Shown piece by piece: positions 439 through 17,542 of a stretch of 64,000 nt of DNA. Source of the stretch: an uncultured Pelagibacteraceae bacterium (GTDB lineage: Bacteria; Pseudomonadota; Alphaproteobacteria; Pelagibacterales; Pelagibacteraceae); NCBI GenBank assembly GCA_902613915.1, contig CACMJB010000006.1, positions 1-64,000 of the forward strand, written 5' to 3'. Position 1 is the stretch's first letter, and each line of letters begins with the position of its first letter. The notes below the pieces were generated by a model. The model did not search any database, was not told the origin of the DNA, and saw nothing but the letters and a program-made list of their open reading frames with translations. The position numbers were made by a program, and so were the translations under genes.

Positions 439-883
439 TTAAATTGCCTACAAATTGTTCAAAATCTTTTGCTTCTTTAAAATTTTTATATACAGAAGCA
501 AAACGAACATAAGCAACTTTATCTAATGAAGAAAGACCTTCCATAATAAACTTACCTATGGTAGGTGTCGGAATTTCACTTTCACCAAGACCCTCAAGAT
601 TTCTTACAATTTTAGAAATAAATTTTTCTATTGTTTCGCTATCAATAGGTCTTTTTCGCGTGGCTATTCTAATTGATTTTGAAATTTTATCTCTATCAAA
701 TGGTTCTCTTTTACCGTTACCTTTTATAACTGTTAATTCTTGAAACTGAACTCTCTCAAAAGTCGTAAATCTCTCTTTTCTCTCGCACCCACAAAGTCTT
801 CTTCTTCTTATAGCTGTGCCATCTTCTGTAGGTCTTGAGTCTACAACTGACGTATCTTTTTCTCTACAAAAAGGACAAAGCAT
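422..883 (-). CDS. nrdR: Transcriptional repressor NrdR
   Basis: ATP/dATP-sensing repressor of ribonucleotide reductase genes. An N-terminal zinc knuckle is followed by an ATP-cone domain from about residue 46. I start it at the ATG giving MLCPFC, the normal family start, not at an upstream in-frame codon that would overlap glyA. The first Cys pair is normal (Cys3, Cys6), but the second reads C-G-C (Cys31, Cys33) followed by four residues before RFTTFE, where relatives have C-x-x-C and two residues. It lies 8 bases downstream of glyA and overlaps ribD. The family assignment is firm; zinc binding by the second pair is uncertain. Confidence 0.93.
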
Positions 884-10167: not shown

Positions 10168-11036
10168 TAAAGCAACTTAGCTACTTTAAGTGCCTCTGAG
10201 ACTTTTTTTTTGGTTTCTTCTCTAATTTCAACTAATGGCAATCTAACAGTTGGTTTACACATTCCAAGTAAAGACGCAGCATATTTGACTGGCGAAGGGT
10301 TACTTTCAATAAACAATGAAGTGTGAAGAGGTTGAAGAAGTTTATCTAGCTCTTCAGCTTTCTTTTGGTCACTCACACATGCTTTTTGAAAATCAGAGGC
10401 GAGTTTTGCTGCAACGTTAGCAGTGACTCCAATAGCACCAACACCGCCACGTTTGTTAAATTCTAAAGCATTGTCATCATTACCAGTTAACTGAATAAAT
10501 TCTTTTCCCATAGCTTTTAATTGTTGATCTACTCTATCAAGATCTCCTGTTGCGTCTTTAACACCCTTAATATTTTTTAATTCATAAAGTTTAGCCATAG
10601 TATCAACTTCCATATTAATAACTGATCTTGAAGGAATGTTGTAAATAATAATCGGAATGCCAACATTGTTATTAATTTTTTTATAATGTTGATACAAACC
10701 TTCTTGTGTTGGTTTGTTGTAATAAGGAGTAACAACTAATAATGCATCGGATCCTGCTTTTTCTGCAAATTTTGATAATTCAATCGCTTCCTCTGTGGAG
10801 TTAGAGCCGGTGCCAGCTACAACTGGAATTTTTCCCTTACATTCTTTAACAGCTATTTCGATAATTTTTTTATGTTCATTATGAGATAATGTTGGCGACT
10901 CACCTGTGGTACCACCTGGAACTACTCCATTAGTACCATTTTCTAAATGATAATTAATTAATTTTACATACTCTCCTTCGCTAAGATTCTCATCTTTAAA
11001 CGGTGTGATTAAAGCTACAATTGATCCTTTAAGCAT
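10167..11036 (-). CDS. dapA: 4-hydroxy-tetrahydrodipicolinate synthase
   Basis: Condenses pyruvate with aspartate semialdehyde in lysine and diaminopimelate synthesis. The Schiff-base lysine is Lys160 in GVKDATGD, with Tyr132 in IYNIPSRS and Thr43-Thr44 in GGTTGES completing the site. At 289 residues it is standard. It heads the long minus-strand run to recO and diverges from slt across 31 bases. Confidence 0.98.
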
Positions 11037-15841: not shown

Positions 15842-15871
15842 ATTATATACTTATCTTTGGAAGAGAGTCAA
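15842..15871 (-). promoter_or_regulatory. Promoter of thiV inside the umuC 3' end
   Basis: On the minus strand TTGACT (15866-15871), 18 bases, TATAAT (15842-15847); an alternative -10, TATATA, gives a 16-base spacer. The start would fall around 15834-15836, at the first bases of the riboswitch. The -35 lies in umuC coding sequence and the -10 overlaps its stop codon. Confidence 0.65.
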
Positions 15872-17120
15872 ACGATGCTGTATCTATTTTTGAAGAGTGT
15901 TCCCTTCTCATTTTCCAATCATTATTAATTCCAGCTTGAGCTATACTTATTGCGTTACGTCCATATTTAGCATTAGTGAAATCAATTGCTTTCATTAATG
16001 TTTTTGATTTATTTTCTAAAATAGGTGCTAATAAATTTAATTCTTTTTCAGATGCATTTTTAAGTTTTGATAAGATGACACCAGCTTTTTGATATAAGTA
16101 TCCGTATTTATAAATTTTATTTAATCCATTTATACAAGTTTTAACTAGTTCTAGACTATTATTAGTTTCAACTGGTAATTCAATTGTAATTGAATTTGAA
16201 TAATATTTCTTATTCTTATCAAAAGGACTTGTTCTAATGAATACAGTTATCGCTCTTGTTGTTTGTTTGTCTGTCCTAATTTTTTCAGCAGCATTCAAAC
16301 AATGAGTAGTTATAGACTCTTTTAATTTATCTAAACTTTGCACTTTTTTTCCAAATGATCTTGATACACAACAACTTTTTCTTTTTGTTTCTTCTATTTC
16401 TAAATCAATACATGGAATGCCTCTTAGTTCCATTACTGTTTTAGCACCCAAAACATTTGTGCTTTTTTTCACCCAGCTGTTTGAAATGTTTTTTAATTGG
16501 TAGGCGTTATTAATTCCATTTTTTATATATAATTTTGATAACTGACGTCCCACTCCCCATATATCTGATATTTCAAATTTTTTTAAAATTTCATCTATAT
16601 TTTCTTTTAGAAATATTACCCCCGCTTTATTTTTTTTTGCCACATGGTTAGCAACTTTACTTAAAGTTTTTGTATTCGATATTCCAACACTTGTTGGTAT
16701 ACCTGTCCATTTTAAAACTCTTTCGCGTATTTTTTTTCCATATTCTTCAGTCATTTCATCTTTTACATTTGATAAATCTATAAAAGCTTCATCTATAGAA
16801 TAAATTTCAACTTTATCAGAAAACCCTTTCAATACTTTCATTACTCTTCTAGAGATATCTCCGTATAAAGCATAATTTGATGAAAAAATTTGAACATTAT
16901 TTTTCTTTACTAATTCTTTTACTTTAAAATAAGGCTCTCCCATTTTAATTCCAATTTTTTTTGCTTCTGCAGATCTTGATATCACGCAACCATCATTATT
17001 TGATAAGACTACAACTGGAACATTTTGGATCTTTGGATTAAATAATCTCTCACATGATACGTAAAATGAATTACAATCAACTAGAGCAATTTTTTTTTTA
17101 TTACTGTTTATGAATGACAT
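15843..17120 (-). CDS. umuC: DNA polymerase V catalytic subunit UmuC (Y family)
   Basis: Error-prone translesion polymerase. The palm motifs are intact: DCNSFY (Asp15) and SIDEAFID (Asp110, Glu111). Fingers, little finger and a C-terminal UmuC-type tail follow; 425 residues is full length. It overlaps umuD by 20 bases and would be made with it after DNA damage (LexA box upstream). Its last codons hold the thiV promoter. No beta-clamp motif could be assigned confidently. Confidence 0.95.
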   Translation of the reverse strand: MSFINSNKKKIALVDCNSFYVSCERLFNPKIQNVPVVVLSNNDGCVISRSAEAKKIGIKMGEPYFKVKELVKKNNVQIFSSNYALYGDISRRVMKVLKGFSDKVEIYSIDEAFIDLSNVKDEMTEEYGKKIRERVLKWTGIPTSVGISNTKTLSKVANHVAKKNKAGVIFLKENIDEILKKFEISDIWGVGRQLSKLYIKNGINNAYQLKNISNSWVKKSTNVLGAKTVMELRGIPCIDLEIEETKRKSCCVSRSFGKKVQSLDKLKESITTHCLNAAEKIRTDKQTTRAITVFIRTSPFDKNKKYYSNSITIELPVETNNSLELVKTCINGLNKIYKYGYLYQKAGVILSKLKNASEKELNLLAPILENKSKTLMKAIDFTNAKYGRNAISIAQAGINNDWKMRREHSSKIDTASFDSLPKISI

Positions 17121-17493
17121 ACGTTACCACTCCCCAAATTATTATCTCTGGATTATCTGTTAAATTAATTTTATCCGACGCATTTTTGGATCCGGATGTT
17201 AAATAATTAGCTTCCTTACTTTTAACTAAAGTTTTGACAACAAGTTCTTCATTAACGTTTGCTATTACAGTTGAAAAATTTTTTGGATTTAAGCTTTTAT
17301 CTACTATTAATAAATCTCCATCATGTATGCCTACGTTTGTCATGGACTTACCTTGAACTCTTATAATAAACGTGGCTGGCGCATTTGTTATAAGATGTGA
17401 GTTTAGATCTATGTCATCCTCAATATAATCTGTTGCTGGTGACGGAAATCCAGCCCCTACTTTGTGTAGATAAAAAGGTATTGTTAGCTTCAT
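17101..17493 (-). CDS. umuD: DNA polymerase V subunit UmuD (self-cleaving S24 peptidase)
   Basis: RecA-stimulated self-cleavage converts it to UmuD', which activates UmuC. Ala14-Gly15 in VGAGFPSP is the expected cleavage site. The catalytic dyad is Ser50 in QGKSM and Lys87 in ELVVKTL, the spacing known for LexA-fold peptidases. At 130 residues the length fits UmuD and is too short for LexA, since it lacks a helix-turn-helix domain. The start is only five bases from a LexA box, leaving little room for a Shine-Dalgarno. Confidence 0.94.
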   Translation of the reverse strand: MKLTIPFYLHKVGAGFPSPATDYIEDDIDLNSHLITNAPATFIIRVQGKSMTNVGIHDGDLLIVDKSLNPKNFSTVIANVNEELVVKTLVKSKEANYLTSGSKNASDKINLTDNPEIIIWGVVTYVIHKQ

Positions 17494-17497
17494 AAAT

Positions 17498-17512
17498 GTT
17501 CTTGTTTTGTTC
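17498..17512 (-). promoter_or_regulatory. LexA (SOS) box of umuDC, alphaproteobacterial type
   Basis: Direct repeat GTTC-N7-GTTC on the plus strand (17498-17501 and 17509-17512), the LexA operator known in alphaproteobacteria. It is flush with the -10 hexamer of the umuDC promoter and would cover the transcription start. Confidence 0.85.
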
Positions 17513-17542
17513 TTTATAGATGATAATATCCTATTTAGTCAA
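17513..17542 (-). promoter_or_regulatory. Promoter of umuDC
   Basis: On the minus strand TTGACT (17537-17542), 18 bases, TATAAA (17513-17518). The predicted start lies inside the LexA box, about 12 bases before the umuD ATG. Confidence 0.7.

Follow-up and report, generated by a model that had tools for sequence, protein, structure and literature searches.

SAR11 bacteria count among the ocean's most abundant cells and are noted for carrying few regulators. LexA generally binds at transcription start sites, where it blocks RNA polymerase until DNA damage and RecA bring about its release. In E. coli, LexA represses the umuDC operon, and UmuD is itself a self-cleaving relative of LexA. The alphaproteobacterial LexA operator, as given for Caulobacter and others in the parts of PMC3323433 and PMC9578287 drawn on here, is the direct repeat GTTC-N7-GTTC, and the element described below has the same repeat with the same spacing. 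Our literature search, from which subscription journals were mostly excluded, found no description of LexA boxes in SAR11.

Here we analyzed a window of 64,000 nucleotides (positions 1 to 64,000 of contig CACMJB010000006.1) from an uncultured Pelagibacteraceae bacterium whose genome assembly comprises 1.008 Mb in 21 contigs and is 93% complete. We read the repeat upstream of umuD in this window, with a probability of roughly 0.9, as an operator at which LexA holds down the umuDC promoter, part of a very small Pelagibacteraceae regulon.

The umuDC operon and its upstream box

The features of the locus are as follows.

15843–17120, minus strand: umuC, 425 aa, a Y-family polymerase (IMS, IMS_C, DUF4113, NF002955)
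17101–17493, minus strand: umuD, 130 aa (NF007621, PF00717, alignment to 8gmt_B)
17496–17513, minus strand: extended form of the umuD box, AGAAC-N7-GAACAT (from the sequence)
17498–17512, minus strand: predicted LexA box of umuDC, GAAC-N7-GAAC towards umuD and GTTC-N7-GTTC on the plus strand
17513–17518, minus strand: -10 hexamer TATAAA, flush with the box (from the sequence)
17537–17542, minus strand: -35 hexamer TTGACT, 18 bp from the -10 hexamer (from the sequence)

On the plus strand, GTTCTTGTTTTGTTC at 17498–17512 is an exact GTTC-N7-GTTC. Read along the minus strand, TTGACT (17542–17537) is followed by 18 bp, TATAAA (17518–17513), GAACAAAACAAGAAC (17512–17498), 4 bp and the umuD ATG at 17493 (spacings counted by eye). 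The letters of that strand bear out the sequence-only reading that the repeat begins on the base adjoining the TATAAA hexamer, and a transcription start 6 to 8 nt beyond the -10 hexamer would lie within the box. The TTGACT/TATAAA pair was not reported by an automatic promoter scan of the window because the scan requires T as the final base of the -10 hexamer; TTGAC was also found in umuD upstreams of relatives, among those listed.

Both genes are intact, and umuC shares 20 bp with the end of umuD. UmuD scored 139.6 bits against NF007621 (cut-off, 110), with Peptidase_S24 (PF00717) as the sole Pfam domain detected, and it aligned with the solved UmuD 8gmt_B across residues 3 to 127. The predicted cleavage bond is A-G, where 8gmt_B has C-G; the serine is in register with 8gmt_B and 1umu_A, and the lysine with 1umu_A. 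The best family for UmuC was the UmuC model NF002955 at 405.8 bits, below its cut-off of 431, with IMS, IMS_C and DUF4113 above their Pfam cut-offs and IMS_HHH below its own.

We then read the upstreams of relatives. Among 121 genomes searched, own included, LexA was matched in 84, UmuD in 99, NrdA in 56 and RecA in 95; because many genomes are incomplete, the misses were not counted as losses. Upstreams were read in 50 of the 84 genomes with lexA, 50 of the 99 with umuD and 41 of the 56 with nrdA; each search contributed its 30 best loci, to which stretches picked for divergence were added, and duplicate copies of our own loci were collapsed in the counts of distinct upstreams. An exact box was present in every distinct upstream read (umuD, 49/49; lexA, 49/49; nrdA, 41/41), counts that are not independent because many same-genus upstreams are closely related. 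Lack of conservation upstream of umuD had been named as a possible refutation, and all 49 umuD upstreams carry the repeat; it is kept in a second family, in which UmuD is 46 to 50% identical. In 40 distinct anchored umuD rows, all 8 half-site columns were invariant, compared with a single one of the 45 columns towards the promoter. We regard this conservation as the decisive evidence that the umuD box is real. Altogether, the results confirm the umuD box as a real element and support its reading as a predicted alphaproteobacterial LexA operator.

Sites at lexA, recA and nrdA

The sequence-only reading had also predicted a LexA protein elsewhere in the genome, with absence of a lexA gene as a possible refutation. 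The prediction survives: a profile search of the same genome found a single lexA gene (C10:18822–19493) whose 224-aa product scored 166.8 bits against TIGR00498 (cut-off, 110.95). LexA_DNA_bind (PF01726; 54.2 bits in the genome search and 51 bits in the protein scan) and Peptidase_S24 (PF00717) were both over their cut-offs. Alignment with the solved 7b5g_A placed the A-G bond as predicted cleavage site, and the GDSM serine and one lysine as predicted Ser/Lys pair, in register; in the alignment with 3k2z_A, the lysine column is A in that chain. The gene itself has an exact GTTC-N7-GTTC box 22 bp upstream of its ATG. A lexA gene together with a boxed umuDC operon in 1.008 Mb supports the further claim that an SOS response with its own mutagenic polymerase is kept in a very small genome.

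A second lexA site, GTAC-N7-GTTC, mostly one base ahead of the lexA ATG, was present in 45/45 same-genus loci (own counted three times) and in 0/7 second-family loci. Coding constraint was considered as its cause and rejected: a longer alternative lexA frame spans the site, as listed at L224, but at L152 and L153 an additional base shifts the box out of the lexA frame with GTAC-N7-GTTC retained.

The same variant was found at recA. RecA was matched in 55 same-genus genomes, of which 9 stretches were read; none had an exact box near the recA start, and all 9 carried GAACAAAATGTGTAC (GAAC-N7-GTAC) upstream of the gene. Two of these loci (L185 and L191) also contain an exact GAAC-N7-GAAC approximately 234 bp upstream of recA, probably within the preceding gene, judged by position. 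Among 30 second-family recA loci (L102 to L131), the GTAC form was present in 28 and the exact box also in 28; the two loci without the exact box have too short an upstream, leaving 28/28 otherwise. The second-family recA gene thus has a double arrangement, exact plus GTAC, for which the window's genus showed no counterpart near recA.

Our own sites at lexA (two), umuD, nrdA and recA, of which those at nrdA and recA and the second at lexA are outside the window, beyond the view of the sequence-only reading, all read AGAAC-N7-GWACAT. This pattern occurs 5 times in our own genome against 0 for the control, a count that is partly circular because the pattern was derived from those sites. In 73 same-genus genomes it occurs 276 times against 61 for the control, and the intermediate pattern GAACWWWNNWAGAAC 224 times against 100. 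Among the 69 of these 276 sites that were listed (18 genomes), 65 precede the four genes (lexA, 25; recA, 14; umuD, 13; nrdA, 13) and 4 lie elsewhere, one of the latter matching the letters of the recA site, in a genome that gave no RecA match. In the 48 second-family genomes the pattern showed no excess (81 versus 79). These data suggest that LexA probably accepts both GAAC and GTAC half-sites within AGAAC-N7-GWACAT, with the GTAC variant an unproven candidate LexA site.

Because the nrdA flank is itself well conserved in the first set (17 of 45 columns invariant), a wider nrdA set was needed, consisting of the best 80 named NrdA matches titled Pelagibacteraceae, Pelagibacter or Pelagibacterales. 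The exact box was present in 78 of these 80 loci, the exceptions being L346 and L359, and its core takes nine forms. Eleven of the 80 upstreams duplicate the first set; among 67 distinct further upstreams, 65 are boxed. The adjoining nrdB gene (Ribonuc_red_sm) overlaps the nrdA end in L306, the one locus read for that. We also searched 142 genomes from across the class for NrdA, obtained matches in 92 and took the 30 best loci, one of them our own. The box is present at L247, a locus of the same family, and at 5 of the 28 other alphaproteobacterial loci (L248 to L275; exact GTTC-N7-GTTC near the start) against a rough expectation of 0.26; in one of the 5, L267, the box is past the first possible start codon. 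LexA control of nrdA may therefore extend beyond SAR11, and its recurrence in other alphaproteobacteria is possible.

Published expression data come from a relative. In PMC12753301, SAR11 strain HTCC1062 was infected with two phages; according to the parts drawn on here, infection with HTVC027P raised recA, lexA, umuD and umuC, together with the three excinuclease subunits (uvrABC). The rise of nrdA (3.12- to 8.87-fold) and nrdB (2.53- to 5.83-fold) in the same infection is described separately and is taken by those authors as serving phage replication. In PMC2864753, likewise used in part, lexA, recA and mucA share one late iron-stress cluster. Induction of all four operons in one infection backs the proposed regulon, and the predicted LexA box of the nrdA promoter would provide an alternative cause for the nrdAB rise. 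Upstream of uvrA, we found no exact box in 300 bp nor, allowing one mismatch, any GTAC form; a single one-mismatch site, at -120, is inside a neighboring divergent ORF read by eye as ssb. Since uvrABC rose without an exact uvrA box, induction need not mean direct LexA control; either uvrA is induced indirectly, or its site is degenerate. In the phages, the single AGAAC-N7-GAACAT in HTVC027P (bases 1 to 50000 of 57595), at 10400 in gp16, was rejected as a phage LexA box, and in HTVC022P the extended pattern was absent and GAAC-N7-GAAC occurred twice in plain form.

Alternative regulators and the extent of the proposed regulon

The window also encodes NrdR (449–883, minus strand; TIGR00244, 163.2 bits). 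The stretch between the LexA box and nrdA contains the palindrome ACACAACATRTAGTTGT and AT-rich sequence resembling TATATAGTATATTAA (L006, approximately 1530 to 1590); the palindrome is conserved by eye among the leaders listed, and the two resemble by eye an NrdR site pair. With nrdR in the window and an NrdR-like palindrome in the leader, nrdAB may answer to both NrdR and LexA. A narrower arrangement is that LexA is limited to lexA and umuDC, the nrdA site serving NrdR and the GTAC site some other factor; the presence of nrdR, the conserved palindrome beside the box and the deviation of the GTAC half-site from the known motif all fit it. We consider this unlikely, however, since the nrdA half-sites are invariant in all 41 distinct upstreams, the likely promoter's TATAAT falls inside the nrdA box (by eye), a GTAC site with identical spacing is found again at lexA, the exact box stands at every second-family recA locus long enough to judge, and nrdAB and the SOS genes were induced together in one infection (PMC12753301).

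That the box is real and bound by a different regulator, or by UmuD itself acting as a repressor, appears very improbable. UmuDAb is reported to act as a repressor in Acinetobacter, which is without LexA, whereas LexA is present here and its own gene bears the same box, and the UmuD encoded here is a 130-aa protein with only the peptidase domain detected.

The frequency of GTTC-N7-GTTC by itself is weak evidence. The window contains 2 exact GTTC-N7-GTTC sites against 0.74 expected, and 17 of 100 shuffles reached two; the genome contains 10, which is not enriched against 13 for the reversed control, and sites within one mismatch of GAACWWWNNWNGWAC number 151, below the 192 of the control. Counting alone was discarded as evidence for that reason, and the case for the box rests on position and conservation. 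A chance GTTC repeat in an AT-rich promoter, unused by LexA, would suit these counts and is nonetheless hardly credible given the 49/49 conservation at umuD, the 8 invariant half-site columns and the same motif at lexA. Further repeats near gene starts, which the sequence-only reading had suggested seeking, turned up at lexA and nrdA; with umuD, these account for 3 of the 10 genome sites, and the remaining 7 were rejected as lying within long ORFs.

Additional candidates were examined. Among 143 one-mismatch sites, 22 were inspected (L225 to L246), all within ORFs and rejected; we likewise rejected the repeated second-family sites inside ORFs, namely L201 and L220 in what by eye is an ABC transporter ATPase and L203 in what by eye is a repeat protein. 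At L223 of our own genome, position 1501, GAACTAAAAAAGTAC lies outside ORFs of at least 90 aa, approximately 205 bp from the start of a 148-aa ORF oriented away from it; it matches the looser pattern exactly and does not match the extended one.

We favor LexA as the regulator at umuDC. In the proposed mechanism, LexA bound at the box, just beyond the -10 hexamer, would cover the transcription start and block RNA polymerase; DNA damage would lead to RecA filaments, self-cleavage of LexA and release of umuDC, and UmuD would be trimmed by the same chemistry as LexA to give the mutagenic polymerase. The predicted regulon members are lexA (with two boxes), recA, umuDC and nrdAB, which suggests an unusually small SOS network of four operons; being a tally from strict patterns, four is not a proven total. 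The genes, the sites, their conservation and their common geometry are observed; LexA binding, repression, RecA-driven cleavage and the completeness of this set are inferred. We give an even chance to the broader proposal that the whole Pelagibacteraceae SOS regulon has shrunk to these four operons, with LexA reading both GAAC and GTAC. If this holds, ribonucleotide reductase would be part of the SOS response, so that damage raises dNTP supply and mutagenic polymerase together; the nrdAB induction under HTVC027P would then stem from SOS, in place of a separate reprogramming of the host by the phage. A regulon of about four operons would also show which damage responses survive genome reduction.

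Comparison with described SOS systems

The umuD box itself is of a known type; the new element is the predicted regulon of four operons, nrdAB among them. The E. coli operator is the palindrome TACTG(TA)5CAGTA (PMC9578287, in the part used), unlike the direct repeat here. Relative to the alphaproteobacterial operator, the window's genus adds a fixed AGAAC...GWACAT flank and a GTAC variant at recA and lexA. Neither "nrdA" nor "ribonucle-" occurs in the main text of PMC12700426, a study of the Caulobacter crescentus SOS regulon. According to the parts of that paper drawn on here, C. crescentus is likewise under LexA/RecA control through GTTCN7GTTC boxes, with 47 directly controlled genes compared to the four operons predicted here.
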